Of a stretch of 45,384 bases of DNA, positions 7,421 through 31,946 are shown one piece after another. Source of the DNA: Gammaproteobacteria bacterium. Lineage in GTDB: Bacteria > Pseudomonadota > Gammaproteobacteria > Pseudomonadales > Pseudohongiellaceae. The notes below the pieces were generated by a model. The model was not told where the DNA came from, ran no database searches, and worked only from the letters and a program-made list of their open reading frames with translations. Location: NCBI GenBank assembly GCA_030654835.1, contig JAURWS010000041.1, forward strand, positions 1 through 45,384, read 5' to 3'. How positions within the stretch are numbered: the first letter of the stretch is position 1; every line of letters begins with the position of its first letter. Made by a program: the position numbers and the translations under genes.

Positions 7421-7545
7421 TCATCGTAGACCCACAATTGCTTTCCCGCACAGTCTCGTGGGATAGTAGCCGCCAATAGTACCTGCCATTAAGAGTGCTG
7501 GCCAAAGGCCACGCGAAAACAACAATAATCAGGAAGCTCCAGACG

Positions 7546-9529: not shown

Positions 9530-11050
9530 TCAGCTCTCGGGAATCTGGCTTGAATCCAGAACCCCTTCCAGCGCATGGCAGAGCGTGCTCAGAATCTGCA
9601 CGCGTGCAAACTTCTTGTCGTTACCAGCCACGAGTGTCCACGGCGCGCGCACCGTGCTGGTATGCGCCACCATGTCATTGACGGCGAGTTTGTACTGATT
9701 CCATTTCTCGCGGTTGCGCCAATCCTCATCGGTGATCTTGTATTGCTTGAGCTCGTTGCCCTGACGTTCCTGAAAACGCCTGAGCTGTTCCTCAAAGCTG
9801 ATGTGTACCCAGAATTTCACCACAGCGGTGCCGTGGTTGGCCAGCTGCTCTTCGAAGTGATTGATTTCCTGGTACGAGCGCAACCACTCGATGCGATCCG
9901 CAAATCCCTCTACACGCTCGACCAGCACGCGCCCGTACCATGAGCGGTCATACATGGTCATGTACCCTTCACGGGGCAGGTGGCGCCAGAACCGCCAGAG
10001 ATAGTGATGCGCCTTTTCCTCATCGGTGGGTGCGGCGATGGGAATCACGCGATACAGTCGCGCATCGATGGCGGCGGTGACGCGTCGCAGTGAACTGCCC
10101 TTGCCCGCCGCATCCCAACCCTCGAATACCACGACCGCATTCTTCTTCTGTGCGTGCATGGCCCAGGCCAGCTGATGCAGACGCAACTGCAGTTTCTCCA
10201 AGCGCTTGTCATAGTCCTCGTCACTCAGACTCTGACTCAGATCGACACGGTCCAGCACCGTCAACGTGGCGTCCTCGGAACTCAGCGTTTGCGCCAGCAG
10301 ATCTTCTTCGGCCTGCAAGGCGGCGAGGGCCTTCTTGTCGCGCATGGGCTTGTCCAGCTCCTGCTGCAGAGTGGTGGCGAGGATTTGCCCCACACTGATA
10401 TCGCGATAGCGATCATTGGTGGCCTCGACGATGTGCCATGGAGCGAAACCATTGTCTGTCATGCGGATAGCCCGCTCGGAGACTGCCACAAAAGCATCAT
10501 AGGACTTGGCGTACTCGGCGAGCTGGGGTGATTTCTTGAATTTGGCGATCTTGGGGTCTTGCTTCAGGCGTTCCTGCTGATTCTTATTGGAGAGATGGAA
10601 CCACAGTTTGACGATGATGTTGCCATCCCTCGAGAGCGTGCGCTCCAGCGCCTCAATGCGCTGCATCTCATTGTCGAAGTCATGCTCCGACACCTTCTTG
10701 AAGGCGAGGTCGACAATCGGCTTGGTATACCAAGAGCCAAACATGACACTGATGGTGCCGCGCGCCGGCATCGTGCGCCAGAAGCGCCAGAAGCGCGGAC
10801 GCTGGCGCTCTTCATCGGTCTCGTCCCAGTAGGCATGGGTCTGCACGTCACGGGTATCGAACCAGCGGTTGAGCTTGTCCACCACCTCCCCTTTGCCTGC
10901 GCCTTCAACACCGGACACGATGATGATCAGCGCCTTGCCACTCTGGCGCAGTTTCATCTGCAGGTTCAGCAGGCGCGTGTGCACCTCGGGTTCGGCGTGT
11001 TTGTATTCTTCCTTGGAGAGCGAACGCCCCACTTCTGCCGCTTCGAACAT
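9530..11050 (-). CDS. pap: Polyphosphate:AMP phosphotransferase (double-domain PPK2)
   Basis: Predicted to make ADP from AMP using polyphosphate. The 506-residue protein is a tandem of two PPK2 domains: the first has a Walker A loop GVEGAGKG at 47-54, the second FEGWDAAGKGSS at about 305-316 followed by the lid region and the RSWYGR motif. Two-domain PPK2 proteins of about 500 residues are the class II AMP-phosphorylating type (family knowledge); in these the C-terminal domain is catalytic. A TTG six bases upstream is in frame, but the ATG giving MFEAAEVGRS matches homologues and follows GGGAAATGG. It is convergent with the secreted protein gene and divergent from the NosR-like gene. Confidence 0.9.
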   Translation of the reverse strand: MFEAAEVGRSLSKEEYKHAEPEVHTRLLNLQMKLRQSGKALIIIVSGVEGAGKGEVVDKLNRWFDTRDVQTHAYWDETDEERQRPRFWRFWRTMPARGTISVMFGSWYTKPIVDLAFKKVSEHDFDNEMQRIEALERTLSRDGNIIVKLWFHLSNKNQQERLKQDPKIAKFKKSPQLAEYAKSYDAFVAVSERAIRMTDNGFAPWHIVEATNDRYRDISVGQILATTLQQELDKPMRDKKALAALQAEEDLLAQTLSSEDATLTVLDRVDLSQSLSDEDYDKRLEKLQLRLHQLAWAMHAQKKNAVVVFEGWDAAGKGSSLRRVTAAIDARLYRVIPIAAPTDEEKAHHYLWRFWRHLPREGYMTMYDRSWYGRVLVERVEGFADRIEWLRSYQEINHFEEQLANHGTAVVKFWVHISFEEQLRRFQERQGNELKQYKITDEDWRNREKWNQYKLAVNDMVAHTSTVRAPWTLVAGNDKKFARVQILSTLCHALEGVLDSSQIPES

Positions 11051-11129
11051 ATTCAATTACCATTTCCCGCGCACACGGGACTTGTTGGAGGACATGACTG
11101 CATTAGTTGTAAGGTCTTTCCGCACCATA

Positions 11130-11147
11130 ACCCTTTTCAAAAAGGGT
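11130..11147. promoter_or_regulatory. Perfect inverted repeat ACCCTTTT-N2-AAAAGGGT between divergent genes
   Basis: An 18-bp palindrome sits in the 204-bp divergent intergenic region, 80 bp from the pap start and 107 bp from the NosR-like gene. It could be an operator; its A/T centre and short loop make it a poor terminator. No matching regulator gene is adjacent. Confidence 0.4.
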
Positions 11148-11254
11148 GACAACAACGACACAATCCGGGTAGTTTCCGCGCTGGAGTGCCTTTCCCTCAC
11201 AGGGTATATTAGGCGTCGGCTTCGAATCACCCCAAGCACAGGAATAATAAGAAT

Positions 11255-13267
11255 ATGCGCCGCCTGACTTTCCCTGCAGTACTGCTGGCATGCCTGCTCG
11301 CTCTGTTGACCACCTCCGCTTTCGCCAAAACTCCCTTTACCATGGTTCTCGAACCCGAGTGGTTCAATGAGGTGCTGCCTGACGCCGAAACCTTCTCGGA
11401 AAAAGAGCTGGGAGAGGCGCCTGTGTACCGGGGTTATCGCAAGAATCCCGATACTGGAGAACAAGAGCTGGTCGGTTTTGTATTCCTGACGGACGACTAC
11501 CCGCCAGAGCGTGTGGGCTATGCGGCACCTATAGACCTGCTGGTCGGCATGGATATGGACGGTGTCGTCACCAACATCAAGGTGCTCGACTACTACGAGT
11601 CCTATATGTACTCACGGGGCGACTTCGTCGACAACTCATTCTTCCTCAACCAGTTTCGCCGCAAGCCGATCACGGACGAATTCCGCCTGAACCGTGACAT
11701 TGATGGTTTGACCGCCGCTACAGCCACCAGCAGCGCCATCTCCCGCAGCGTCGGTGAAACCGCGCGTCGTGTCGCCCGCGCCTACCTGGGCTACGGGATG
11801 GGCTCGGAGGAAGAGCAGAACAACAATGCCAACGCGCTGGCCCTGCTGGAGCCACTCACCTGGGGGCAGATGCTCGATCAGGGCATGATCAGTGTGATGA
11901 ATACCCGCAATGCCGAGGGTAGCGAGTTACAGTTGGCCTTTACCTATATCGGCAAACCGGCACTGGGACAATTCTTCATTGGCGAAGCCACCTACAACGC
12001 TGTGGAATCGGATGCGGCATTTCGTGCGGGCGGCGGTGAGTTGATGCTGATCGCGCCGACCGGGCCCGGCGCAGGTGTCTCCTACCGCCAATTCCCGATG
12101 TCAGTACGACAGGGCGAGATCACCCGTCGGGTGGCAGGCAACCGCTTCAGCAACGTCGGACCTGTCCTGGAAGGCGCTATCGTCGGACACGCCAGTTACG
12201 CCGTAGCGATCGCGATGCACCCGGACTTCGATATCACCCAGCCATTCACGCTGATCTATCACGTTCCTGGAGGCGGCGGTGATGCCACGGTTGAATACAG
12301 CCTCAACGGCGTGGGTCTGTCGTTGGCAAAGAACGAGCCGATACTCTCTCAGGAACAGTTGCTGGAAGCGCAACTGGCCAATGCTGGATTCTTCGAACGC
12401 TTGCGAGTGGCACCGCCCTGGGGCGTCACGCCCTGGGTGGATGTCGTACTGCTGGCGATACTGTTTACACTGGTCATGGTCGCGTTCCTGCGCAAGAGCA
12501 GCGCCGTACGCTGGGTCGCATTGACCATGACATTACTCTATCTCGGTTTCTACAAGGCAGGCTTCCTGTCGGTTTCCCATATCACCAGCCTGCTCAAACA
12601 GGGGCCAGAAGTCTTCACCAGCAACCTGCCGACGCTAATGATTGTGACCTTCACCGTGGTCACGACACTGATCTGGGGCCGGGTATTCTGTTCATCACTG
12701 TGCCCGTTCGGAGCACTACAGGATTTCATCGCGCGCTTCGCGCCCAAGCACTGGCGCATCAAGGTGCCGCAGAAGATTCATGACAATGCGCTGTACATCA
12801 AGTACGGAATCCTTGCCGTAATCCTGACCCTGGCGCTGACTAATCCGAATATCAGCGTGTTCCAGTACTTCGAACCCTTTGGAACGGTGTTCTTCTTCAG
12901 CCCCTCCGTGCTGCTGTGGGTGATCCTGCTGGCCATCCTGGCGGGCTGTGTTGTCGTGGAACGCTTCTACTGCCGCTATGTCTGCCCGCTGGGAGCGGCG
13001 CTGGGCGTAATGTCACTGCTTAGTCCTCTGCGCATCAAGCGTGTGCCGCAGTGCACGTTGTGCAAGGTCTGCGAACAGAGCTGTCCAACCGGCGCCATAC
13101 GGCGCGAGAAAATAGACTTCAAGGAATGTGTGCGCTGTGATGTCTGCGAGATCAAGCTGGTTAAAATGGTCGGCACCTGCCGTCATCCGATGGAAGAAAT
13201 TACGCGTCGTCAGAAGGATAAGCACTCAATTCCTGTCATTGATCTTACCCCGGTGACCTCCTCATAA
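11255..13267 (+). CDS. NosR/NirI-like FMN-binding, 4Fe-4S membrane protein
   Basis: A 670-residue membrane redox protein. A signal peptide or first helix (1 to about 24) is followed by a periplasmic FMN-binding domain containing DGLTAATATS at about 150-159, the place of the flavinylation motif (usually D-x-x-T-G-A-T; Ala replaces Gly here). A second extracytoplasmic region leads to five or so membrane helices from about 394 to 590, with CSSLCP at about 478 and CRYVCP at about 572, then two ferredoxin-type clusters (CTLCKVCEQSCP near 599, CVRCDVC near 624). This order is that of NosR, which passes quinol electrons to periplasmic N2O reductase. No nos gene is nearby, so it more likely feeds another periplasmic oxidoreductase, possibly the heme-copper proteins downstream. 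Confidence 0.85.
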   Translation: MRRLTFPAVLLACLLALLTTSAFAKTPFTMVLEPEWFNEVLPDAETFSEKELGEAPVYRGYRKNPDTGEQELVGFVFLTDDYPPERVGYAAPIDLLVGMDMDGVVTNIKVLDYYESYMYSRGDFVDNSFFLNQFRRKPITDEFRLNRDIDGLTAATATSSAISRSVGETARRVARAYLGYGMGSEEEQNNNANALALLEPLTWGQMLDQGMISVMNTRNAEGSELQLAFTYIGKPALGQFFIGEATYNAVESDAAFRAGGGELMLIAPTGPGAGVSYRQFPMSVRQGEITRRVAGNRFSNVGPVLEGAIVGHASYAVAIAMHPDFDITQPFTLIYHVPGGGGDATVEYSLNGVGLSLAKNEPILSQEQLLEAQLANAGFFERLRVAPPWGVTPWVDVVLLAILFTLVMVAFLRKSSAVRWVALTMTLLYLGFYKAGFLSVSHITSLLKQGPEVFTSNLPTLMIVTFTVVTTLIWGRVFCSSLCPFGALQDFIARFAPKHWRIKVPQKIHDNALYIKYGILAVILTLALTNPNISVFQYFEPFGTVFFFSPSVLLWVILLAILAGCVVVERFYCRYVCPLGAALGVMSLLSPLRIKRVPQCTLCKVCEQSCPTGAIRREKIDFKECVRCDVCEIKLVKMVGTCRHPMEEITRRQKDKHSIPVIDLTPVTSS

Positions 13268-13303
13268 AGAGATCACTTGTTTTCAACCACTGGAGTACAC
13301 AAC

Positions 13304-13894
13304 ATGAAAAAATCTGCACTTCTCTCACTGGGGCTGTTGTTTGGCGGCCTCGCCGGCGCTGCCGCGCAGGCTGCGGAAGACGGCTGGACCACACTGATCG
13401 ATGGCGTCAACGGCCTGGAGAACTTCAATGTCGTCGGCGCGGCCAACTGGAGCGCCACTGACGGCACGATTCAAGCTACCGAGGGACCCGGCGCTGCCTT
13501 TCTGGTGACAAAGGAATCATACGGCGACTTCGAGTTGCGCGTGGAATTCTGGGTGAGTGATGATGCCAATAGCGGCATCTATATGCGCTGCCAGGATGTC
13601 GCCACTATCACCGACCGCACCTGCTATGAAGCAAACATCTTCGATCAGCGTCCAGACCTGACCTTTGGGACCGGCGGCATCGTGCACATCGGTCCTGTCG
13701 CCGAGCCATTTCCCAAGGCAGGGGGAAAGTGGAACACCTACGAAATCACGGTGGATGGCACGCATCTGATGGTAACGCTCAATGGTGTGATGACAGCCCA
13801 TGTAGAGGATACCCAATTCGCCAGTGGCCCCATTGCACTGCAGTGGGCACGTGGCACCGTCCGTTTCCGCAACATGCAGATCCGCCCGCTGTAA
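13304..13894 (+). CDS. Secreted DUF1080 (3-keto-disaccharide hydrolase-like) protein
   Basis: A 196-residue exported protein: signal peptide 1 to about 24 (GAAAQAAED), then one jellyroll of the DUF1080/laminin-G-like type, with DGWTTLIDGVNGLENF at the start, YGDFELRVEFWVSDDANSGIYMR in the core, KWNTYEITVDG, and a final strand GTVRFRNMQIRPL. DUF1080 proteins include 3-keto-glycoside hydrolases, but many members are unassigned and no catalytic residues can be confirmed here. The ATG follows ctggag by about eight bases, 36 bp after the NosR-like stop, so the two may be cotranscribed. A strong hairpin terminator follows. Confidence 0.88.
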   Translation: MKKSALLSLGLLFGGLAGAAAQAAEDGWTTLIDGVNGLENFNVVGAANWSATDGTIQATEGPGAAFLVTKESYGDFELRVEFWVSDDANSGIYMRCQDVATITDRTCYEANIFDQRPDLTFGTGGIVHIGPVAEPFPKAGGKWNTYEITVDGTHLMVTLNGVMTAHVEDTQFASGPIALQWARGTVRFRNMQIRPL

Positions 13895-13911
13895 TAAAAG
13901 CGCAGACAAAG

Positions 13912-13950
13912 AAAAAGGGGACGAAGATATAACTCTTCGTCCCCTTCGTT
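13912..13950. terminator. Bidirectional intrinsic terminator
   Basis: A 10-bp stem ggggacgaag/cttcgtcccc with an 8-base loop is flanked by A-rich sequence on the left and T-rich sequence on the right. It lies between convergent genes and should stop transcription from both, with the better U-tract on the minus strand. Confidence 0.85.
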
Positions 13951-13995
13951 TGTTTGGGAGCACCAGACCCAACCTCCGGTGCTCCCCGTCAGAGC

Positions 13996-15381
13996 TTACT
14001 GCGTAGCCACTGAACGCTGTTTGGCCGCTTCACGCTGAGCCACTAGATCGTCATACCCGGCCTGATCGAGGTGAGTGACTGCAATCCAGGCGTGCGTCAT
14101 CTCATCTGCGGTACGGCTACCTTCCACTACCCAGAAATCTGGATCGGGATTGTTCGGGTTGTTGGCAGTGTTGTCGTACCACTGCTTGATCACCAGAACT
14201 GCACCAGTTGGCAACAGTGGAGCAACATCTGGTGAATAAAGGTGGTTGTGGTGCCACGTGGCGCTCCAGTTGGAGATCTGGCTGATCTGCTCAGTACGTC
14301 CAGTCGCTGGGTAGAAGATCTCCAGAGACGCTTGACGCATACGCAGGTGGCCGTGCGGCTGGAAGCTGTCGATACGCACTGGATGGTCGAACGAGTGGAA
14401 GCCCTGGGTCATAGCAGTGCCATGTGGAGGAACAATCATCTCGCCGGCGTTCAGTCTGTACAGCTTCAGATCCTGCTTGTATTTGGCGACTTCTTCGTAA
14501 CCTTCTGGATACAACCAGAGACCGATCTCTACGACGTTGTCTTCAATCATGGTGCCAGGAGCAGTCGCGCCCACACCGCCTGGGAACAGGTGGATATCCC
14601 AGCGCACGCGTGAGTTGGCTGGCAGGGTACGGCACACGCCTTCCGGCATCACTTCGCCCCACTTGCCCATCGCGTATTCGGTCAGCTGACCGTAGGGCTC
14701 GTATTCGCCTTCCGCATTGAGGACTTCCACATCGGAGTTGGCGTGATGCACCACAGCCTTGGCGTTACCTGACGGCTTCACTTGAATCGCCTTGATGCAG
14801 CGGTCAGTGCTCAGGCCAGTCATGACGTAGGGGCGGTGCCACATGTCATTACCCAGTGCAGGAACGTCGATCGGAGAAGAGTCCAGAATCAGATCAGGCT
14901 GCCCCATCTCTGCGGCAAAGTTCCAATCATCTGCCGGTGGCAGATTCGCTACCGGGTGCGAACGGTCACCCCAATCACCTTCCGGTGCGCCTTGCTGAAC
15001 CCACGCAACGATGGTGTCGATCTCACTCTGCTCCAGCCTCCAGTCGCCTTGCAGCTTCTGGATGCCGATGCCGTGGTCGTAGGCGTAAGGGGGCATTTCG
15101 CGGTTTTCAACTCGGTACTGAATCAGCGGAGCCCAGGGACGGATCTGCTCATAATTGGTGAGTTGCATGGGGCCGACACCGCCTTCGCGGTGGCAGACGA
15201 CACAGTTATCAGTGATGATCTGTGCAACGTGATCAGCATAAGTCACTTGACCCTGGTCGATTGACAGGGAAGTGGACTGAGCCTGAGCCTGGGCGCCAAG
15301 CCCCAGAGCAGCAAGGACGGTCAAGCCAAGTATGGCTTTGCCAGTGTTCTGTTTTTGTTTCCGAAACTGCTTTGATGTCAT
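13996..15381 (-). CDS. Secreted cytochrome c / PHM-like copper monooxygenase fusion (copy 1)
   Basis: A 461-residue periplasmic protein. Signal peptide 1 to about 34 (AQAQAQS); a c-type heme domain with CVVCH at 60-64 and a possible axial Met in REMPPYA; then a two-domain copper type II monooxygenase fold. All PHM copper ligands can be placed: the His pair in VVHHANSD and His in WDIHLFP (CuH), PHGH and the Met of TADEM (CuM). YDNTANNPNNPDP is the loop usual in Cu2_monoox_C domains. It probably hydroxylates an unknown substrate with electrons delivered through the heme. ATG 15381 follows AGGAGAGG. Copy 2 on the opposite strand has equal length and near-identical sequence. Confidence 0.8.
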   Translation of the reverse strand: MTSKQFRKQKQNTGKAILGLTVLAALGLGAQAQAQSTSLSIDQGQVTYADHVAQIITDNCVVCHREGGVGPMQLTNYEQIRPWAPLIQYRVENREMPPYAYDHGIGIQKLQGDWRLEQSEIDTIVAWVQQGAPEGDWGDRSHPVANLPPADDWNFAAEMGQPDLILDSSPIDVPALGNDMWHRPYVMTGLSTDRCIKAIQVKPSGNAKAVVHHANSDVEVLNAEGEYEPYGQLTEYAMGKWGEVMPEGVCRTLPANSRVRWDIHLFPGGVGATAPGTMIEDNVVEIGLWLYPEGYEEVAKYKQDLKLYRLNAGEMIVPPHGTAMTQGFHSFDHPVRIDSFQPHGHLRMRQASLEIFYPATGRTEQISQISNWSATWHHNHLYSPDVAPLLPTGAVLVIKQWYDNTANNPNNPDPDFWVVEGSRTADEMTHAWIAVTHLDQAGYDDLVAQREAAKQRSVATQ

Positions 15382-15484
15382 GATCCTCTCCTCGTTATTG
15401 GGTGAGCAGTGGGCGAAATGTAAATCCAGTTCCGGTGGGCTGTCTACTTCGCCCAAGGCAAAAACGCAACAGGTAGAAGATAGT

Positions 15485-15498
15485 TTGATTACGATCAA
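15485..15498. promoter_or_regulatory. FNR/Anr-type box TTGAT-TACG-ATCAA
   Basis: An exact match to the FNR/Anr consensus TTGAT-N4-ATCAA, extended to a 7+4+7 palindrome (GTTTGAT...ATCAAAC, 15483-15500). Its centre is about 110 bp from the minus-strand start and 240 bp from the plus-strand start, so it fits control of copy 1 best. A CRP/FNR-family regulator responding to oxygen or NO is the natural reader; that is inference. Confidence 0.6.
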
Positions 15499-15608
15499 AC
15501 AAATGACACTTTGGCCCGCCTCAAAGGGTACTGCGGCTGGAAATTTCTCTCGCACCTCTCACATAATCCACTAGCATTGACTCCGGGTTGCTGATCTTGC
15601 AGCTCTTG

Positions 15609-15638
15609 ATGATCGGTTGGCAGTCGTCGACCGATCAT
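15609..15638. promoter_or_regulatory. Inverted repeat ATGATCGGT-N12-ACCGATCAT
   Basis: Perfect 9-bp arms separated by 12 bases, 95-124 bp upstream of copy 2. The spacing places the arms two helical turns apart, which suits a dimeric regulator. No regulator gene is adjacent. Confidence 0.45.
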
Positions 15639-15732
15639 GTCTCTATTGCTTATTTTTCTTGAAAAGAGTACACAACTCCTCAGAAGCGGAATTACGTTTC
15701 GACCACTGCTCACCCAATTCGAGGAGAGAATA

Positions 15733-17118
15733 ATGAGAACAATGCAGTGTTGGAGACAGACGCAGCGCACCGGCAAAGCCATTCTTGGCTTGACCGTCCT
15801 TGCTGCTCTGGGGCTTAGCGCCCAGACCCAGGCTCAGTCCACTTCCCTGTCAATCGACCAGGGTCAAGTGACTTATGCTGATCACGTTGCACAGATCATC
15901 ACTGATAACTGTGTCGTCTGCCACCGCGAAGGCGGTGTCGGCCCCATGCAACTCACCAACTATGAGCAGGTCCGTCCCTGGGCTCCGCTGATTCAGTACC
16001 GAGTTGAAAACCGCGAAATGCCCCCCTACGCCTACGACCACGGCATCGGCATCCAGGAGTTGCAAGGCGACTGGAGGCTGGAGCAGAGTGAGATCGACAC
16101 CATCGTTGCATGGGTGCAGCAAGGCGCACCGGAAGGTGATTGGGGTGACCGCTCGCACCCAGTCGCCGACCTGCCACCGGCAGATCAATGGACATTTGCC
16201 GCTCAGTTCGGTGAGCCAAGTCTGATTCTGGACTCCGCACCGATTGATGTCCCAGCGCTGGGTAATGACATGTGGCACCGTCCCTACGTCATGACCGGCC
16301 TGAGCACTGACCGCTGCATCAAAGCGATTCAAGTGAAACCGGCCGGTAACGCCAAGGCTGTGGTGCATCACGCCAACTCCGACGTGGAAATCCTCAATGA
16401 GGACGGCGAATACGAAGACTACGGTCAGCTGACTGAGTACGCGATGGGCAAATGGGGCGAAATCATGCCGGAAGGCGTGTGCCGCACCCTGCCAGCCAAC
16501 TCGCGCGTGCGCTGGGATATCCACCTCTTCCCAGGCGGTGTGGGCGCGACTGCTCCTGGCACCGTGATCGAAGACAATGTCGTAGAGATCGGTATCTGGC
16601 TGCATCCGGAAGGCTACGAAGAAGTGGCCAAGTACAAGCAGGATCTGAAGCTTTACAGATTGGATTCAGGCGAGCTGATTGTTCCTCCGAATGGCACTGC
16701 CATGACTCAGGGCTTCCACTCGTTCGACCATCCAGTGCGTATCGACAGCTTCCAGCCGCACGGCCACCTGCGTATGCGTCAAGCGTCTCTGGAGATCTTC
16801 TACCCAGCAACGGGACGTACCGAGCAGATCAGCCAGGTGTCCAACTGGAGTGCCACCTGGCACCACAGCCACCTGTATGAGCCGGACGTCGCTCCGCTGC
16901 TGCCAACGGGTGCTGTGATGGTCATCAAGCAGTGGTATGACAACACCGCCAACAACCCGAACAATCCTGATCCGGATTTCTGGGTGGTAGGTGGCAGCCG
17001 TACTGCGGACGAAATGACGCATGCCTGGATCGCGATCACTCACCTTGACCAAGCCGGCTACGACGAAATCGTTGCCCAGCGTGAAGCAGCCAAGCAACGT
17101 TCAGTTGCTGCTGAGTAA
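15733..17118 (+). CDS. Secreted cytochrome c / PHM-like copper monooxygenase fusion (copy 2)
   Basis: 461 residues, colinear with copy 1 and differing at scattered positions, mainly in the signal peptide and around residues 150-170. Landmarks: signal peptide to about 35, CVVCH 60-64, His212-His213, His264, His343 and His345 in PHGH, Met428 in TADEM. By analogy with rat PHM these are the CuH (HH, H) and CuM (HxH, M) ligands, so both copper sites look complete. The ATG at 15733 follows gaggagag. A bidirectional terminator follows. The high identity in an inverted pair suggests recent duplication or continuing gene conversion. Confidence 0.8.
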   Translation: MRTMQCWRQTQRTGKAILGLTVLAALGLSAQTQAQSTSLSIDQGQVTYADHVAQIITDNCVVCHREGGVGPMQLTNYEQVRPWAPLIQYRVENREMPPYAYDHGIGIQELQGDWRLEQSEIDTIVAWVQQGAPEGDWGDRSHPVADLPPADQWTFAAQFGEPSLILDSAPIDVPALGNDMWHRPYVMTGLSTDRCIKAIQVKPAGNAKAVVHHANSDVEILNEDGEYEDYGQLTEYAMGKWGEIMPEGVCRTLPANSRVRWDIHLFPGGVGATAPGTVIEDNVVEIGIWLHPEGYEEVAKYKQDLKLYRLDSGELIVPPNGTAMTQGFHSFDHPVRIDSFQPHGHLRMRQASLEIFYPATGRTEQISQVSNWSATWHHSHLYEPDVAPLLPTGAVMVIKQWYDNTANNPNNPDPDFWVVGGSRTADEMTHAWIAITHLDQAGYDEIVAQREAAKQRSVAAE

Positions 17119-17156
17119 GTGCTGAAATTGATTGTCGGATGATAAGTCCGACGATA

Positions 17157-17195
17157 AAAAAAGGGGCGAAGACTACAAATCTTCGCCCCTTTTTC
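17157..17195. terminator. Bidirectional intrinsic terminator
   Basis: Stem ggggcgaag/cttcgcccc with a 9-base loop, seven As on the left and five Ts on the right. It separates copy 2 from the convergent MoaD-like gene. A smaller hairpin (gtcgga/tccgac, 17134-17153) precedes it. Confidence 0.88.
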
Positions 17196-17206
17196 ATTCT
17201 CTAACT

Positions 17207-17491
17207 TTACCCGCCGCTCAATGCTCCGACAATCTGCACGCGCGCGTTCTCGCGCACCGGGGCCTGCAACGTCCGCACCATGGACTCACCAACGAAGATG
17301 GCGATGTGACGACGGATATTGCCCTGCTCATCAATGATGCGAAATGCCAGACCTCGAAAGCGACTCTCCAGTGCGGCGATCACATCGGCAAGCGTTGCTT
17401 CGCCGCCATCGGACATCGGCAAGTCCAGCTCCACTTCACGCAACCGGTCGGTGTAGTCCTCCAGCTGACTGGGGAGAATCACTCGAATCAT
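17207..17491 (-). CDS. MoaD/ThiS-family beta-grasp (ubiquitin-like) protein
   Basis: A 94-residue protein with the MoaD/ThiS fold pattern: opening strand MIRVILPSQL, central helix TLADVIAALESRF, IAIFVGES, and the C-terminal tail VQIVGALSGG ending in the Gly-Gly that is adenylated and thiocarboxylated in sulfur carriers. The start ATG overlaps the stop of the upstream propeller gene (ATGA), so the two are translationally coupled. No moaE, thiG or E1-like gene is near, so a role in molybdopterin or thiamine synthesis is not supported by context; a dedicated sulfur-carrier or modifier role with the propeller partner is possible. Confidence 0.85.
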   Translation of the reverse strand: MIRVILPSQLEDYTDRLREVELDLPMSDGGEATLADVIAALESRFRGLAFRIIDEQGNIRRHIAIFVGESMVRTLQAPVRENARVQIVGALSGG

Positions 17492-18639
17492 GGCAGCGTC
17501 ACGACCTCGACCGAGTATATCTGCGGCAGATTGACGGTGATCGCTTCCCAGTGCAGCCCTTCGTCCCTGCTCACCCAGAGCTGACCGCCTGTGGTGCCAA
17601 GATAGACACCTACCGCTTTCTCGTTGTCCACCGCCAGGCACTGGCGCTTCACGGTCCACCAGGCCTGTTCACGAGGAAATCCCTGATCCTGACGCTCGAA
17701 ACTGGCACCACCATCCTGCGTATGGAATACGGCTGGTCGGCCACCGGGACAGGTACGTGGCCACTGCCCCGAACCATCCATGGGGAAGACCCACGCGGTG
17801 TCCGGATCACGAGGATGCAATACGATGGGGAACCCGATGTCGCCGACATCCTTGGGCAGATTGTCGCCGATACGCTGCCAGCGCTCGCCCTTGCTTCTGT
17901 CCAGCGCATAGAGGCCGCAATGGTTCTGGTGATAGAGGCGATTTGAATGCACGGGGTGCATCACCAGACAATGCGGATCGTGGCCGAACTCGTATTCGCT
18001 GCCATCTTCCTTTGGAGGATAGAAGTCCATGGCAACACCCTTGTTGAGCGGTTTCCAGGTGGCTCCTTCATCCATGCTCTCGAAGATTCCGCCACCAGAC
18101 ATGCCAACAAGCAAGTGCTTCTTGTCGCTGTGATCGACGATCACCGAATGTAATTTGGGGCCATCCGGCGTGCCATCCTTGTCGCCACCGCGCCACTGAA
18201 AACAATCGGGATGGTGATTGAAGCCTTCTACTTCCTGCCACGTGTTGCCGCCATCAAGCGACTTGAAAAGCCCCTGCGGAGACGTGCCCGCGTACCATAC
18301 GTCCGGTTCACTGGCGTGCCCAGGCGTCAGCCAAAAGACATGATCCACACTTCTACCTGGCGCGCCGGGCTCTGCACCAGGAACTGCGGCAAATGCCGGA
18401 GGTTTTTGCGCCTCAGTCCAGGTGGCCCCGGTATCACGGGAGATGAAGACAGAAGGTCCCAGATGCCCGCTTCCCACCGACATCAATTGATACCCAGATC
18501 TGCGTGGATCTGCCACGTAGTGACTGACCACGGCACCGAGATGCATTGGCCCCTTGATCGTCCACGTACTGCGGTCCCCATTCCCTTCCACAATCCAGGC
18601 GCCCTTGCGGGTGCCTACCAGAATCAGATGCCTTGCCAT
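17488..18639 (-). CDS. Asp-box (BNR/VPS10-like) beta-propeller protein
   Basis: A 383-residue cytoplasmic-looking protein (no signal peptide) starting MARHLILVGTRKGAW. Five Asp-box motifs of the S/T-x-D-x-G-x-x-W type are visible: SRDTGATW, SLDGGNTW, SMDEGATW, TQDGGASF and SRDEGLHW, each closing a propeller blade. The centre is His-rich (FNHHPDCF, GHDPHCLVMHP, YHQNHCG), which could bind metal. It is often annotated as a sialidase-like or glycosyl hydrolase protein, but the catalytic Arg triad is not evident and there is no export signal, so the enzyme name is unsupported. ATG 18639 follows GGGAGAATAACTC. It is translationally coupled to the MoaD-like gene. Confidence 0.8.
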   Translation of the reverse strand: MARHLILVGTRKGAWIVEGNGDRSTWTIKGPMHLGAVVSHYVADPRRSGYQLMSVGSGHLGPSVFISRDTGATWTEAQKPPAFAAVPGAEPGAPGRSVDHVFWLTPGHASEPDVWYAGTSPQGLFKSLDGGNTWQEVEGFNHHPDCFQWRGGDKDGTPDGPKLHSVIVDHSDKKHLLVGMSGGGIFESMDEGATWKPLNKGVAMDFYPPKEDGSEYEFGHDPHCLVMHPVHSNRLYHQNHCGLYALDRSKGERWQRIGDNLPKDVGDIGFPIVLHPRDPDTAWVFPMDGSGQWPRTCPGGRPAVFHTQDGGASFERQDQGFPREQAWWTVKRQCLAVDNEKAVGVYLGTTGGQLWVSRDEGLHWEAITVNLPQIYSVEVVTLP

Positions 18640-19037
18640 GAGTTATTCTCCCTGTTGATTGACCGCCCTGCCACAGAACCTCGCGGGTCAGACCCGCGCA
18701 ACACATTGAATAGAAGTAATATTTCACTCAATAAGGCAACTAAAATTTAGTTAGAAGGCAATTTTGTGGGCCAAATCGAATCATTCTGACCAATCGAAAA
18801 CCTCGCGAACCTCGCGGGTCAGACCCGCGCAACCCATTGAATAGAAATAATATTTCACTAAAAAATGCAACTAAAATTTAGTTAGAAGGCAATATTGTGG
18901 GCCAAATCGAATCAGTCTGATCAATCCTAAGCCCCATCACTCTTAAGCAATGGAGCTGCACTCTGTACGCGTTCGAATAACCGCAATGATTTTGCGGCAG
19001 GAATTGATCGTCTAACTTGTTTTTAGGGTTGTATTTT
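18640..19037. other. 398-bp gene-free interval holding a tandem repeat
   Basis: No convincing gene is present. Most of the interval is a two-copy 131-bp direct repeat (18676-18926), followed by about 110 A/T-rich bases before the 3' end of the M48 gene. It holds the promoter of the propeller/MoaD operon near its left edge, but I could not place it. Confidence 0.6.
18676..18926. repeat. 131-bp period direct repeat, two copies, each with a hairpin
   Basis: Copy 1 (18676-18796) and copy 2 (18807-18926) align without gaps at a period of exactly 131 bp and differ at only a few bases. Each copy begins with the hairpin CGCGGGTC-a-GACCCGCG and contains ctaaaatttagttagaaggc, with its own palindrome (ctaaaatttag). 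The unit is unlike the REP units elsewhere in the window and may be a small repeated element. Confidence 0.85.
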
Positions 19038-21768: not shown

Positions 21769-23964
21769 CTAAGGCAGCGCCAGCGCCACGATGCGGGCAG
21801 ACTCGCCACGTGAGCTGACAGCCATGACCAGGTACTGCCTGCCTTCATACATATAGGTCATCGGTACACCCGTGACAACCCCCGGCATATCGATCCTGGC
21901 AACGATGTCGCCGGTCGCCTTGTCGTGCGCCCACAGCACTGGATCTCCGCCAACGCCCTCACCGGCAAACAGCAAGGTCTTGGTCAATACCAGACCGGAA
22001 CGCGTCGGCTTGCCAGTGCGGCCTATGTCCACGCCCTGCAACAGCGGATGGTTCTTGATGGCGGCAGGCGTATCACCGTTCACCACTTGCCACACATGCT
22101 CGCCGCTCATCATGTCGATCGCCGTGATGCGGCCATAAGGAGGCTTGACCAGCGGGATGCCATCCACCGACGGCGTGCGACTGCCGCCCTGAATGTAAGC
22201 GACGCTGGAAGCCTCCGGCTCGTGCGTCAGCGACAACACGCTGGTCGCGGTTCGGGACGGCACGTAGATCACACCAGTCTCGGGGTCATAGGCAGAGCCT
22301 TCCCAGTTCGAGCCCCCTGTGGAAGACGGCAGGTGCAGCGTTCCCTCGGTACCATCCTTGGGATCTTGGAACAGCGAGGGCGGCGTAAAGACTGACGTAC
22401 TGAAACGGAACCTGGATGCCGCCTCTTTGGCCTTGGCCAGAATCTCTGGCGTGAAGTCGACCAGATCGTCTTCCTGGAAGCCCTGACGGTCAAATGGCAG
22501 CGGTTTGACCGGGAACGGTTGCGTCAACGCGGTCCACTCACCGGGAACATCGGTACCCGGCACCGGACGCTCCTCCACCGGGAACAGCGGCGTACCTGTG
22601 GCACGATCAAACAGGAACAGGTGCGACTGCTTCAGCGTCTGGATGACAGTCTTGCGACCGTCGGGCAGGTTAGCCAGAATCGGTGCCGAAGGGGTATCCC
22701 AGTCCCAGATGTCGTGGTGAGTCGTCTGGAAGTGCCAGACCTTCTCGCCGGTTTTGTAGTTCAGGGCGACAGTGGAGCTGGAGAACAGATTATTGCCTGG
22801 ACGATCGCCGCCGTAACGGTCACCCGTCGCCGCTTCCACCGGCAGGAACACCAGACCCAGTTCTTCGTCGGCAGACATCGGCGCCCAGACACCGGCGTTG
22901 CCAGTGAAATCGGCTCCCGCCAGCCAGGATTCATAGCCTTCTTCGCCCGGCTCGGGAATGGTCTTGAAGGTCCACAACAGCGCCCCGGTAGTCACATCGA
23001 AGCCACGGATGTCGCCCTTCACATTGCTCGCCGATATGGGGCGCATGCCGACCAGGTGCGCGGCACCGGCAATCACGACACCGTCGACAGCCATGGGCAT
23101 GAAGGACATGCCAATATCCAGGTCTTCACGACCCGGCCCTCGACGCAGCCCTTGCTGCAGATCGACCCAGCCCTTGTCGCCGAAAGACTCGATCTCGCGG
23201 CCAGTGGCGGCATCCAGCGCTACCAGATAATAGCCGGGGGTCATCACATAAATGGTCTTCTGACCGTTGTTGTCGTAATAGGTCAGGCCCTTGCCGGATC
23301 CCTTGCGCGGCGCGGCGTCAAAACGGGCGCCTTCATCGGGACGCCACATCCACAGCATCTGGCCACTGGCCGCCTCCAGTGCCACGACGTTACGCGTCGC
23401 GCCCGCAGTCAGGTATACACGGCCATCGACCATCAAGGGAGTCGTCACGCTGGTATTTTCCGGCTCGGGACCGAAGGGGCCAGTGTCAAAAGACCAGGCC
23501 GGGGTCAACGTGGCGACATTCGCAGCATTGATCTGGTCAAGCGGTGCATAGCGCGTCGCGGCGTTGGAGCCATTGAACACGGCCCACTCGACGGTGTCGC
23601 TGCCAGCAACGGATGCGGCCACTGGCGTAATTGGCAGCGCAGTCAGAGCGTCGGCCGTCAGCGTGCCACCCGCCACTGGAACGCCGCCGTTCTGCAGCAA
23701 ATAGGCCGTCAGGTGCAGATAGTCGTCATTGGTCAGCGAGCCCGGAGTCTCGGCTGGCATAGTCGTGCGAATAAAATTGTAGAGATCCCCGCCAGTGCGG
23801 CCAGTCCAGGTGGCACGCACGCGCGCGTTCATGTCCACTGGCACGTGGCAACGAGAACATTCGGCTTCAAACACTGCCTGGCCACTCTCGACGCTGGCTT
23901 CCTGCCCATAGGTGGAAGCAACACCCATTATGCTGAAAAGCAGGAACAATGAAGATTTTGTCAC
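21769..23964 (-). CDS. Secreted PQQ-dependent dehydrogenase with N-terminal c-type heme
   Basis: A 731-residue periplasmic quinoprotein. After a signal peptide (1 to about 21, ASTYGQ) comes a cytochrome c domain with CSRCH at 36-40, then an eight-bladed PQQ propeller beginning EWAVFNGSNAATRYAPLDQI, with W-motifs such as TGALLWTFKT and the substrate-site segment TTHHDIWDWDTPSAP. This last motif is typical of the glucose/quinate-type quinoproteins rather than methanol dehydrogenases. The heme sits N-terminal, unlike quinohemoprotein alcohol dehydrogenases where it is C-terminal. A GTG start at 23964 is chosen because AGGAG lies seven bases upstream and it opens the signal peptide. No pqq synthesis genes are in the window. 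Confidence 0.88.
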   Translation of the reverse strand: MTKSSLFLLFSIMGVASTYGQEASVESGQAVFEAECSRCHVPVDMNARVRATWTGRTGGDLYNFIRTTMPAETPGSLTNDDYLHLTAYLLQNGGVPVAGGTLTADALTALPITPVAASVAGSDTVEWAVFNGSNAATRYAPLDQINAANVATLTPAWSFDTGPFGPEPENTSVTTPLMVDGRVYLTAGATRNVVALEAASGQMLWMWRPDEGARFDAAPRKGSGKGLTYYDNNGQKTIYVMTPGYYLVALDAATGREIESFGDKGWVDLQQGLRRGPGREDLDIGMSFMPMAVDGVVIAGAAHLVGMRPISASNVKGDIRGFDVTTGALLWTFKTIPEPGEEGYESWLAGADFTGNAGVWAPMSADEELGLVFLPVEAATGDRYGGDRPGNNLFSSSTVALNYKTGEKVWHFQTTHHDIWDWDTPSAPILANLPDGRKTVIQTLKQSHLFLFDRATGTPLFPVEERPVPGTDVPGEWTALTQPFPVKPLPFDRQGFQEDDLVDFTPEILAKAKEAASRFRFSTSVFTPPSLFQDPKDGTEGTLHLPSSTGGSNWEGSAYDPETGVIYVPSRTATSVLSLTHEPEASSVAYIQGGSRTPSVDGIPLVKPPYGRITAIDMMSGEHVWQVVNGDTPAAIKNHPLLQGVDIGRTGKPTRSGLVLTKTLLFAGEGVGGDPVLWAHDKATGDIVARIDMPGVVTGVPMTYMYEGRQYLVMAVSSRGESARIVALALP

Positions 23965-24282
23965 GCGTACACTCCTTCTGGAACCTTCCAAATAATTGGT
24001 GGATCTAAAACGGGCGCCGATACTACCGCTTTTGTTTCTGCCGGAATAGCAACTGCCCCACTCTGTCACGCAAAATCACAGTCTTCCTGCAACCATTTTG
24101 ATGTCTCCCTATTGAAGCCAAATTTACGCTGGGTGGACAGCAAAGACCCGGTTCTGTCAGTATGCCGCCTCTTGAGAATTTGCCTCATGACCAATGACAA
24201 CATACCATTTATTAACAGCGGATTAATGGCGATGGCCGTTGTTGAAAAATAGCGCCACACCGCCAGATAAAGAGGGAAAGTA

Positions 24283-25488: not shown

Positions 25489-27231
25489 ATGAAAACCAAC
25501 CACTGGAAGCACCTGCTGTGTACCGCGATGCTGTCATTGCTGGCACTTCCCGCCGCCAATGCTGCTGACCGGATCGGCAACTTTGCTCTGCTGGACACCA
25601 CCGGCGATTTCCACCAGCTCAACAAGTACGGTTATCAGAATGCTGTGGTCATCGTGGCGCAGGCCAATGGCTGCGAAGCGAACTACAATCAGCACCACAA
25701 ATACAAGCTGTTGGAAACCACCTGGAAAGAGCAAGGTGTCACCGTCATGATGCTGAACGTGGCCGGCGAAAGCCGTGATGCAGTCAGGGCCGAAGCACAA
25801 GCCTATGATTACAGCTGGCCAGTGCTGCTCGATAGTTCGCAGCTGGTGACCGAGTCGCTGGGAATTACCCGAGCGGGCGAGATCGTAGTACTTGACCCGG
25901 AGCGTCTGCAGATTCTGTACCGTGGTGGTCTCGATGTGATTCCACGCGATCCCGCTGCTCCATCCGTGACGCATCTGGGTGACGCCATTCAAGTGGCCAT
26001 CGCCGATGGCACCCGCGACGCCGAGACCGTGGTGACACAGCCCGACGGTTGCGACATCAACTTCCCTGCCAGAGAGATGCATGCGTCCAACACGCCAGAC
26101 TACGCCGCTGACATTGCGCCTATCCTGAAAGAGAACTGCGTGAATTGTCACCGTGTCGGCGGTATCGCACCGTTCGCCATGGACAGCCACCAAATGGTGA
26201 TGGGCTGGTCCACCATGATCCGCGAGACCCTGCTGACCAAGCGCATGCCCCCGGCGCAGGTCGACCCGGACATCAACCACTTCTCCAACGCCCGCTACAT
26301 CAGCACCGAGAACCTGCAGACGCTGGTGCACTGGATCGATGCTGGCGCACCACGCGGCGCCTCCACCACTGACCCGCTCGAAGGCTTGACCTTCCAGGAA
26401 GGCTGGGAACTGGGCGAGCCGGATCTGGTGGTCTATGCCGAAGACTTTGTGATTCCCGCCACCGGCGTGATCGAATATCGCTACCCGCTCATCGACCTGC
26501 CCTTCGAGGAAGATGTCTGGGTCAAGGCCGTGCAATTCGTCCCGACCGAGCGTTCCGTGGTTCACCACATGATCGCCAGTGTTGTCGAGCCACAGTACAG
26601 CCGCGAGATGGATGCCAGCGAGCGTGGCGAAGTGCGTTTCCTGGAAGGTTATGCTCCCGGCAAGGAACAGGCGACTGTGTTCCCGGAAGGCACCGGTGTA
26701 TTCATTCCGAAGGGCTACAAGATCCGTCTGGACTCCCACTACACCACCATGGGCCGCGAGGTGCGCGACCATACAGCCATCGGGATTTACCTCTCCGACG
26801 AAGTGCCGGAGCATGAGTTCCGCACCTACCGTCTGTCTCATGAAGGCAGAAGCCTGGTGATTCCGCCTGGTGTGAAAGACCACCGCATGTATGCCAGTTA
26901 TGTGTTCAATAAAGAAGTCACCATGTACGCATTCCGTCCGCACATGCACACGCGTGGCAAGGAAATGCGCTTCAAAGTGGTCTACCCGGACAACACCACT
27001 GCTGACCTGCTCAACGTGGCGAACTACAACTTCGGCTGGCAGCCTACGTATCGTCTGACCGAACCAATGGTGTTGCCAGCGGGTTCACGCGTCATGATCG
27101 ACGGCGCCTTCGACAACTCCGAGTACAACCCCGGCGCATGGGACCCGACAGAGGTTTCCAACGGCGGCGAGCAGACCTGGGATGAGATGTTCGCGGGCTA
27201 CCTGACCTACACTTACAACGAAGAGATGTAA
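25489..27231 (+). CDS. Secreted redoxin / cytochrome c / PHM-like copper monooxygenase fusion
   Basis: A 580-residue periplasmic three-part protein. Signal peptide 1 to about 26 (AANAAD); a thioredoxin-fold redoxin domain at about 27-175 with a single Cys62 in NGCEAN and no CxxC; a heme domain with CVNCH at 217-221; then a copper type II monooxygenase pair. Copper ligands visible by comparison with PHM are His359-His360 (VVHHMI), His417 (DSHYTT), His485 and His487 (RPHMH) and Met567 (TWDEM). FDNSEYNPGAW is the Cu2_monoox_C loop. It is a distant relative of the pair at 14-17 kb, sharing heme and copper domains but adding the redoxin. ATG 25489 follows AAGGAGACCCTC. Substrate unknown. Confidence 0.82.
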   Translation: MKTNHWKHLLCTAMLSLLALPAANAADRIGNFALLDTTGDFHQLNKYGYQNAVVIVAQANGCEANYNQHHKYKLLETTWKEQGVTVMMLNVAGESRDAVRAEAQAYDYSWPVLLDSSQLVTESLGITRAGEIVVLDPERLQILYRGGLDVIPRDPAAPSVTHLGDAIQVAIADGTRDAETVVTQPDGCDINFPAREMHASNTPDYAADIAPILKENCVNCHRVGGIAPFAMDSHQMVMGWSTMIRETLLTKRMPPAQVDPDINHFSNARYISTENLQTLVHWIDAGAPRGASTTDPLEGLTFQEGWELGEPDLVVYAEDFVIPATGVIEYRYPLIDLPFEEDVWVKAVQFVPTERSVVHHMIASVVEPQYSREMDASERGEVRFLEGYAPGKEQATVFPEGTGVFIPKGYKIRLDSHYTTMGREVRDHTAIGIYLSDEVPEHEFRTYRLSHEGRSLVIPPGVKDHRMYASYVFNKEVTMYAFRPHMHTRGKEMRFKVVYPDNTTADLLNVANYNFGWQPTYRLTEPMVLPAGSRVMIDGAFDNSEYNPGAWDPTEVSNGGEQTWDEMFAGYLTYTYNEEM

Positions 27232-30447: not shown

Positions 30448-31658
30448 TAACGGGGGCCGTTCAGGCGGATGAATTTCTGCACACGGTGGCCAGTCTGCAC
30501 TTCACCGGTAAACAGGTTGCCGTTCGAGTCGAAGTCCATGTTGTGCAGCCAGTCGAACTGGCCGGGTTGACGACCCCCGGTGCCCCATGAGTACACGGGC
30601 TCCAGAGTCTGACGATCCAGAGTCCACACCACATTGTTGGTGCCGTCCGGCACGTACACGAAGCGCTGCTCGGTATCTAGCGGATCGAACTCCATCTCCC
30701 AGGTCGAGCCAGGACCATAAGTCTGCGGACGCAGAATGCTCTCACTCACGTAAGTACCGTCCTTCTGGAAAACCTGAATCCGGTTGCTGGGGCGGTCGCT
30801 GACATACACCAGACCATCATTGGCGATTGCCACCCCATGCACCGGAGTACGCCAGGTTCGGCTCGGCGCTGCATTCGGATCCCATAGCCCGGGGTTATCA
30901 TCGGTAGGACGCTCGCCGTAGGCACCCCAATGACGCTTGTACGCACCGGTGTCGGCATCAAACACGATCAAGCGGCGATTGCCGTAACCATCAGCCACAT
31001 ACAGCTCATCGGTCGTGGGGTCCACTTCCATCACCGCAGAACGGTTCACGGAATCGGTATCGTTGCTGCCCTCGTTCATGCCAACGCCACCAATGGTCAT
31101 GACCAGTTCGCCTTCCTTGGTGAATTTGTGGATCATGTGGTCGTCGGTACCATTGCCGCCCACCCAGACGAAGCCTTTGTAGTCCACATGGATGCCGTGT
31201 TCACTGTTGAACCAGGGATAGGCATTGGTTGCGCTGGCGCCCCACGCATGAATCACTTCTCCCGCAGGGTTGAAAGCCAGAACCGCCGGTGCAGTGGTGC
31301 AGCACTCGGCCTGCAGGACAGCGTGTCCCCAGGTCTGATCGCGAACAGTCTGCAATGGGGTAGAACCGGCGTTGGTGCTTTGCACGGTCCAGGGACGATG
31401 AATGATCCAGACATTGTTGTCGGCATCCACGGCGGTACCGGCCACCTGTCCGATGATCCAGTTGTTCGGCAGCGGCTTCGGCCAGAATGGATCGACGGCG
31501 AACTGCGCCACGCCTTCCGGCACTTCGGGACCGGATGCGTCTTCCGGCATATAAGGAACGGTGAGCGTCTGCGCCATGGCAGTCGTGTGCAGTGCAGCCA
31601 TGACCAACAGGCATCCGCCTGCTGTGACCGTCCGCGCGTGTCTGATGAGCTTTTTCAT
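30447..31658 (-). CDS. Secreted NHL-repeat beta-propeller, amidating-lyase (PAL)-like
   Basis: A 403-residue exported protein: signal peptide 1 to about 30 (TTAMAQT), then six NHL-type blades, e.g. GTAVDADNNVWIIHRP, EHGIHVDYKGFVWVGGNG, ELYVADGYGNRRLIVFDADTG, GLVYVSDRPSNRIQVFQKDG and FDSNGNLFTGEVQTGHRVQKF. The Cys pair in QAECCTTAPAVL is conserved in relatives as I remember them. The fold and repeat sequence resemble the peptidyl-hydroxyglycine alpha-amidating lyase half of eukaryotic PAM. The ATG at 31658 is preferred to a GTG at 31670 because the GTG overlaps the AAGGAG ribosome site. It may partner the PHM-like enzymes in this window; only the fold supports that. Confidence 0.8.
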   Translation of the reverse strand: MKKLIRHARTVTAGGCLLVMAALHTTAMAQTLTVPYMPEDASGPEVPEGVAQFAVDPFWPKPLPNNWIIGQVAGTAVDADNNVWIIHRPWTVQSTNAGSTPLQTVRDQTWGHAVLQAECCTTAPAVLAFNPAGEVIHAWGASATNAYPWFNSEHGIHVDYKGFVWVGGNGTDDHMIHKFTKEGELVMTIGGVGMNEGSNDTDSVNRSAVMEVDPTTDELYVADGYGNRRLIVFDADTGAYKRHWGAYGERPTDDNPGLWDPNAAPSRTWRTPVHGVAIANDGLVYVSDRPSNRIQVFQKDGTYVSESILRPQTYGPGSTWEMEFDPLDTEQRFVYVPDGTNNVVWTLDRQTLEPVYSWGTGGRQPGQFDWLHNMDFDSNGNLFTGEVQTGHRVQKFIRLNGPR

Positions 31659-31946
31659 TGTTGTTATCACTCCTTTCTTATTTTAGACAGCGATTTAGAT
31701 AGCGGTTGAGGGGATAGCGTCAGGGAGTGTAAGGAGCTTGCCTGCAGATGTCCATTGACCGGTGGACTGTCAGTTCTAATACTCCACACGCGCGGGAACC
31801 TTTAGCAGTAACTTGCGTTTATATCTTCAAGAGTCATCCATTTACTGTACGAGGCATCTGCCATCGAAATCGAGCTTCTACTCAAAGCCTGCCGCCGCCA
31901 TGACCCGCTGGCGTGGGAAGCTCTCGTCAGACACTTTCAGGACCGG

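Follow-up and report, generated by a model that had tools for sequence, protein, structure and literature searches.

Two twin genes face away from each other in a stretch of 45,384 nucleotides (nt) from a gammaproteobacterial genome of the family Pseudohongiellaceae (assembly GCA_030654835.1, contig JAURWS010000041.1, positions 1 to 45,384; this whole stretch is referred to as the window). Copy 1 occupies 13996..15381 on the reverse strand, its ATG ending at 15381, and copy 2 occupies 15733..17118 on the forward strand. Each is an open reading frame (ORF) for a protein of 461 residues in which a signal peptide is followed by a heme-c domain and by a two-domain copper core resembling that of peptidylglycine hydroxylating monooxygenase (PHM). 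An initial annotation, made from the letters alone, had described two divergent genes of this length with a CVVCH heme site and the PHM set of copper ligands, and ORFs and alignments agree with it, down to the residue numbers given for copy 2.

Twin genes in a long inverted repeat

The heme-c site of copy 2 (CVVCH, C60 to H64) is encoded at 15910..15924 on the forward strand. Conservation and profile alignments place the ligands of the first copper site, CuH, at H212-H213 (16366..16371) and H264 (16522..16524), and those of the second, CuM, at H343-G-H345 (16759..16767), with Gln341 two residues before the latter motif. The remaining CuM ligand, M428 of a DEM motif (17014..17016), is assigned from conservation and from the alignment to dopamine beta-hydroxylase (DBH). 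The counterparts in copy 1 lie on the reverse strand at 15190..15204 (CVVCH), 14743..14748 (the CuH HH pair), 14590..14592 (the third CuH His), 14347..14355 (the CuM HGH) and 14098..14100 (the CuM Met).

A repeat search showed that the genes fill two inverted arms of 1406 nt each (13989..15394 and 15720..17125), of which the second is 89% complementary to the first. The arms are separated by a spacer of 325 nt (15395..15719) that contains both divergent leaders and has no repeat of at least 25 nt inside it, in keeping with the earlier statement that the region between the twins is unique. The ends of the leaders are alike, as had also been noted: about 40 nt upstream of each ATG are shared with a one-base indel, reaching somewhat past the arms and including a GAGGAGAG ribosome-binding site. 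The two proteins are identical in 417 of 461 aligned columns (in an alignment without the initial Met of copy 1), and identity per 60-nt block ranges from 72% to 100%, two adjacent blocks being at 100%; the near-identity across the coding regions claimed by the initial annotation was thus slightly overstated. Two strong hairpins, one 3' of each twin (13912..13946 on the reverse strand after copy 1 and 17158..17192 on the forward strand after copy 2; z -6.5 and -6.4), are likely terminators, and each twin looks like a single-gene unit. Rfam at gathering thresholds reported nothing in 11000-19000.

Heme domain and copper core

The only domains that Pfam detects in the twins are those of cytochrome c, PF00034 scoring 23.6 and 22.0 bits against a cut-off of 21.3. 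The family to which they belong comes in a short form (heme and PHM) and a long form (redoxin, heme and PHM). Conservation was followed in 38 aligned relatives of copy 2, 32 of which were kept in alignment A1 at 26-99% identity to it. In both sets H64, H212, H213, H264, H343 and H345 are the only invariant histidines, and M96 and M428 are invariant as well (38/38 and 32/32). Since the invariant histidines coincide one for one with the His of the heme site and the five His of the copper sites, this pattern of motifs is more than chance. CxxCH, M96, the five copper His and M428 are also kept in all 89 rows without redoxin of the wider alignment A2. The c-type heme site proposed at the outset is supported by the PF00034 scores and the invariant CxxCH, and M96 is the likely axial heme ligand.

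An AlphaFold2 model of copy 2 built from 120 sequences (mean predicted local distance difference test, pLDDT, 85.3; predicted template modelling score, pTM, 0.83) has the fold of PHM and DBH. When it was searched with Foldseek, the first 31 of the 50 PDB matches listed were PHM or DBH (E 3e-11 to 7e-9, target template modelling score, TM, 0.37-0.64), and the first match of another kind followed at E 4e-7 with a query TM of about 0.23. No other fold for the C-terminal part came ahead of the PHM likeness. Profile searches against the PDB point the same way: the best match of A2 was human DBH (E 9e-4), whose HH, H, HTH and EM fell under the HH, H, HxH and Met of the family, and the 11 matches of profile A6 at E <=1 (best 0.0035) were all to rat PHM, whose HH, H and HTH line up with the family ligands. 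The full PHM ligand set read from the sequence is hence recovered by alignment to both enzymes, the Met weakly in the case of PHM. Profile A5, with redoxin domains included, found mostly redoxins and PHM entries from E 0.03; phmmer with copy 2 alone found nothing among the PDB sequences. Fold and ligands assign the catalytic core to the PHM/DBH (copper type II monooxygenase) superfamily, and we regard a PHM/DBH-type dicopper core joined to heme c as very probably the correct description of what the sequences and the model predict.

Proposed function and electron supply

The A6-PHM alignment locates the positions of Arg240 and Tyr318 of PHM, which we take to be the residues binding the peptide carboxylate. 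At these positions the short proteins carry Gln341 and Trp432 (85/85), another short type of four sequences has Glu and Leu, and the long rows have Arg and Tyr (31/31). Because Gln341 and Trp432 stand at the carboxylate-binding positions, peptidylglycine appears unlikely as the substrate of the twins.

From the genes, motifs, predicted fold and conservation described here, we think it reasonably probable that the twins are periplasmic copper hydroxylases fed by heme c, with a substrate other than peptidylglycine. A Sec-type signal peptide would export each twin to the periplasm, and its motifs suggest that heme would be attached there. The signal peptide would be followed by the c-type cytochrome (CVVCH, with Met96 as likely axial ligand) and by the two-subdomain PHM/DBH-like core carrying CuH (H212, H213, H264) and CuM (H343, H345, M428). 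Electrons would reach the coppers via the heme, which may replace ascorbate as their source, a proposal of the initial annotation that fits the architecture. The heme could itself be reduced by periplasmic cytochromes, a NosR-like oxidoreductase or a partner dehydrogenase. CuM would activate O2 and hydroxylate an aliphatic carbon of the substrate; copper loading, transfer from heme to copper and hydroxylation are all putative steps.

A candidate for the electron supply lies beside copy 1, where a NosR/NapH-like protein with FMN_bind, Fer4_5 and Fer4 domains (11255..13267, forward strand) is followed by a protein of the 3-keto-disaccharide hydrolase family (PF06439; 13307..13894, forward strand). 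Each has a single match in the genome, and their order beside copy 1 is the same in a related genome, G009. The NosR/NapH-like protein is a possible electron donor to the periplasm.

Dehydrogenase genes accompany the family elsewhere. In all eight Gdh3 loci of relatives, a gene for C1 (a recurrent neighbour described below), one to four PHM genes, Gdh3 and a GMC dehydrogenase are arranged in this order on a single strand, PHM and Gdh3 being 82-183 nt apart and Gdh3 and GMC 29-116 nt; in L089, the ninth locus with a GMC gene, this gene lies on the opposite strand and Gdh3 is absent. The nearest relative of this dehydrogenase is FdhL, the large subunit of fructose dehydrogenase (E 5e-47), an enzyme that carries its cytochrome c on a subunit of its own. 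Within the nine GMC loci the only CxxCH ORFs of at least 80 residues are members of the PHM family, which leaves room for a cytochrome encoded at some other place in these genomes. The window has at 21772-24069 a dehydrogenase of the pyrroloquinoline quinone (PQQ) type with a cytochrome c domain near its N-terminus, and a relative is found at the same place in G009.

Several observations count against a heme-fed hydroxylase. We found no experimental work on any member of the family. Domain searches, which the initial annotation had named as a check, found the cytochrome c domain, and the copper models Cu2_monooxygen and Cu2_monoox_C (PF01082, PF03712) were not reported for the twins at E <=0.1; PF03712 matched at E <=0.01 in three of the 32 members of A1, and the failure of the twins is a matter of the library threshold, not of a biochemical feature. 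The model of copy 2 has 10-14% identity to PHM and DBH structures, the E-values linking the family profiles to DBH and PHM are modest, and the Met of DEM is aligned to PHM in A6 only in a second segment of 0.1 bits. Profile A1 gave six PDB matches, unrelated and led by SMC3 (E 0.0026), with neither PHM nor DBH among them; because the wider A2 and A6 did find DBH and PHM, the link in sequence depends on distant paralogues. The two coppers are predicted from fold and ligand alignment; their spacing in PHM is about 11 angstroms according to PMC6123673, and a closed form with 4-5 angstroms is reported for one DBH molecule. On the side of the electron supply, the NosR-like neighbour was seen in the window's genome and G009 only, and no FdhL-like gene stands beside the twins, both PF13618 matches of the window's genome being on other contigs. 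What the initial annotation had observed is confirmed, and its interpretation is partly supported.

A possible PHM-PAL-like pair elsewhere in the window

The presence in the window of a gene similar to PAL, the half-enzyme that acts second in peptidylglycine amidation, raises the alternative that the twins are true peptidylglycine hydroxylases which amidate peptides together with this protein, as a bacterial PAM. The gene encodes an NHL propeller (30450..31670, reverse strand) with all six of the PAL residues that were checked, and the twins have the fold and ligands of PHM. Of these six positions, the Arg533 column is gappy; all six are kept in four of 15 aligned NHL genes. Among the 16 NHL genes of the genome, four are at most 4 kb away from a gene of the PHM family, where 0.52 would be expected (P 0.0015, post hoc), and other cut-offs gave a weak signal at 3 kb (2/16, P 0.06) and a stronger one at 8 kb (4/16, P 0.010, post hoc). 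The Gln and Trp at the Arg240 and Tyr318 positions of all 85 short proteins speak against such a role. The Arg and Tyr are instead a feature of the long paralogues with redoxin, two of which, unlike the twins, are found near PAL-like genes. We therefore hold it very improbable that the twins form a bacterial PAM.

One of these long paralogues lies in the window at 25489..27231 on the forward strand and combines redoxin, heme-c and a PHM-like core with full copper ligands and Arg and Tyr at the Arg240 and Tyr318 positions. Three long genes of the window's genome combine Arg, Tyr and intact copper sites. Two of them are 2-3 kb from an NHL propeller with all six PAL positions (window 30450-31670, at 3.2 kb from 25489-27231, and C38), and the third (C44) has no NHL match on its contig. 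Among the 14 genomes of the genus, the link between 25489-27231 and 30450-31670 was found on one contig in four (the window's genome, G000, and G010, G011 and G012) and the C38 link in seven (G000, G001, G003, G005, G007, G011 and G013); in the remaining ones the PHM and PAL-like genes were on different contigs or one was unmatched at that identity. As judged from these sequences, a PHM-PAL-like pair may exist in these bacteria, of which the twins would not be the PHM.

Recurrent neighbours of the family

In a survey of 76 named loci with short genes, two neighbours were seen to recur. The first, C1 (cluster 1, for example L120:6176-7159), is a protein of about 317 residues whose N-terminus has a hydrophobic helix and which has neither a Pfam family nor a match to a PDB sequence at E <=0.1. 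Its model (pLDDT 85.7) matched only assorted beta-sandwich and Ig-like chains, with query TM <=0.27 among the matches listed. In the sources clustered, 57 members of C1 occurred in 55 of 77, and 49 of the 57 were located at most 472 nt upstream of a family gene on the same strand, a count that is biased because the loci were picked for having a PHM gene. A less biased count found C1 in 37 of 95 relative genomes, every one of which (37/37) has the PHM family; the PHM-positive genomes without C1 are G014 and G035, with one weak match each, and G040. Of the five C1 genes in the window's genome, all but one stand next to a short PHM gene, and no C1 is found beside the twins or the C8 copy. A locus of the window's genome on C52 (L141:6489-12800) has a C1 gene, no PHM gene in the 16 kb examined, and then two genes for TonB-dependent receptors.

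The second recurrent neighbour, encoded near the short gene on the other strand, is a long paralogue, seen in 41 of the 72 loci with a family ORF. In the long rows of A2 the CuM His are replaced by Arg or Lys and by Asn, Ser or Gly in 30 of 31, the sole row with an intact CuM being that of window 25489-27231; 30 of the 31 retain H213, and 30 retain H264. The CuM-less long paralogues (L120:8876-10615, L135:1301-3076 and the partners in L047-L118) keep the PHM-type Arg and Tyr. To judge by these residues, an apparently intact enzyme often stands beside a paralogue with a dead oxygen site. In L120 a cluster 3 protein, of unassigned family, adjoins the CuM-less long gene, and a relative with 51% identity stands next to another such gene in L135.

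Because the long paralogues lost CuM and kept CuH, a role other than that of an oxygenase appears to be tolerated on the PHM fold in the same loci. By extension, the twins might bind heme and copper without hydroxylating anything and act as periplasmic electron carriers, copper stores or sensors of copper or oxygen. The high numbers of paralogues, 16 in the window's genome and up to 19 in a relative, would also fit such a role. Against it, both sites including the His and Met of CuM are kept in all 89 short rows, a complete set for which a store or carrier would have no need; the pairing with a dehydrogenase in some loci also fits an oxygenase better, though it fits a carrier too. On balance we consider a non-oxygenase role of the twins rather unlikely and retain the heme-fed hydroxylase as the preferred reading.

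Distribution of the family and history of the pair

Among the 16 family members of the window's genome that match copy 2, all keep CxxCH and MPP and 13 keep every copper ligand. Matches to copy 2 were present in 40 of the 95 relative genomes and in six of 44 genera, all inside the window's own family of bacteria. In a sample of the phylum three of 299 genomes matched at E 1e-15, and PF03712 occurred in four of 274 genomes of a class sample, the window's own genome being included in both counts. The nearest named records are Gammaproteobacteria genomes from metagenomes with isolate names such as Loclat and ErkenSummer, which presumably denote lakes; further ones are labelled Pseudohongiella, OM182 and SAR86. 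In the taxonomy, Pseudohongiella falls in the Pseudohongiellaceae of the order Pseudomonadales. A plasmid search with copy 2 gave no match. Four tandem heme-PHM genes were observed between a TonB-dependent receptor and an M16 peptidase in L123:2885-16671 (G008, C22). The protein at 7495-8379 of the window, which has no Pfam or NCBIfam match at E 0.01, is 34% identical over 129 residues to cluster 16, a family seen near other heme-PHM loci.

Four of the genomes searched contain the head-to-head pair, namely G000 and the relatives G009, G010 and G012, gene order having been checked for G009. In the tree, from which row G12_o34 was left out (internal stop, branch of 1.8), the four copies 1 group at a support of 1.000 and the copies 2 of G000, G010 and G012 at 0.952; the copy 2 of G009 is not firmly placed (0.583, next to the clade of copies 1). 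The duplication is older than these species, since the pair is common to the four genomes and the copies 1 form a clade of their own. A recent duplication, one of two origins offered by the initial annotation, was rejected on these grounds. That the inverted pair reflects a misassembly, or the very recent doubling of a single ordinary cytochrome gene, is extremely unlikely: the high local identity in the two adjacent blocks at 100% would be expected of either, and yet the same pair occurs in three other genomes, the copies 1 keep to their fully supported clade and the 3' ends are distinct.

The other suggested origin of the likeness, gene conversion, is supported only in patches and by a post hoc test. 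In the comparison of G000 with G009, the bin of 200-400 nt had nine sites at which the copies agree within a genome and differ between genomes and none of the reverse pattern, and the last bin had none of the former and 15 of the latter. Over the six genome pairs, this contrast gave Fisher p-values of 0.0005, 0.024, 0.33, 0.63, 0.0013 and 0.083; it is significant in three of the six, the pairs being non-independent and the split at 1000 nt having been chosen post hoc. These site patterns would fit conversion from time to time in the part encoding the heme domain, with the 3' end left to diverge freely.

Discussion

The twins share with PHM (rat; PDB 1phm, 1opm) the two-subdomain fold and the aligned HH, H and HxH, with the Met aligned weakly, and differ from it in having 10-13% identity, an N-terminal heme-c domain, and Gln341 and Trp432 at the Arg240 and Tyr318 positions. 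The electrons of PHM come from ascorbate, as stated in PMC6123673. With DBH (human; PDB 4zel) they share the fold, the aligned HH, H, HxH and Met, and a Gln two residues before HxH, at 14% identity. DBH has an N-terminal DOMON domain and is without a c-type heme. The proteins with redoxin, heme-c and Cu2_monoox_C (such as window 25489-27231) are of the same family at 27-31% identity and have the heme-c and PHM-like core of the twins; they are set apart by the extra redoxin, by the PHM-type Arg and Tyr, and by the loss of the CuM His in most loci beside short genes. A functional likeness is to cellobiose dehydrogenase, which feeds lytic polysaccharide monooxygenase (LPMO), an enzyme with a fold unrelated to the PHM type. 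In eight relative loci a GMC-type dehydrogenase gene is likewise beside a copper monooxygenase with heme as a possible relay; here, however, the heme is fused to the monooxygenase and not to the dehydrogenase, and coupling between the two enzymes is putative.

These features might be joined in a self-financing module of periplasmic oxidation, in which heme-PHM would hydroxylate a C-H bond, and a partner dehydrogenase would oxidise the alcohol and return two electrons via the fused heme c to the coppers, so that each turnover would pay for the next without ascorbate. In relatives this dehydrogenase would be the FdhL-like GMC/Gdh3 enzyme, and in the window's genome perhaps the PQQ enzyme. Copper loading or the holding of substrate would fall to the redoxin-heme partner whose CuM is dead, and the long PHM and the PAL-like propeller found in the same genomes would together correspond to PAM in bacteria. 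We put this forward as a speculation with a small chance of being correct as a whole.

What is new relative to PHM and DBH is the fused heme, together with C1 as a recurrent partner, the companion that has lost CuM and the operon that includes a GMC dehydrogenase. A heme-fused PHM was not described in the titles and abstract openings of the literature searched, which leaves most subscription journals outside its coverage, such that the absence proves little. Since the twins go unreported by the standard copper models of Pfam, such genes likely remain unannotated. PHM and DBH are ascorbate-fed copper enzymes of animal signalling. If the proposed function is true, a heme-wired bacterial branch suggests that there is another way to power their chemistry without ascorbate, and it would provide a soluble system for following the delivery of electrons to the coppers by heme colour. 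It would also bear on the origin of the animal PAM.

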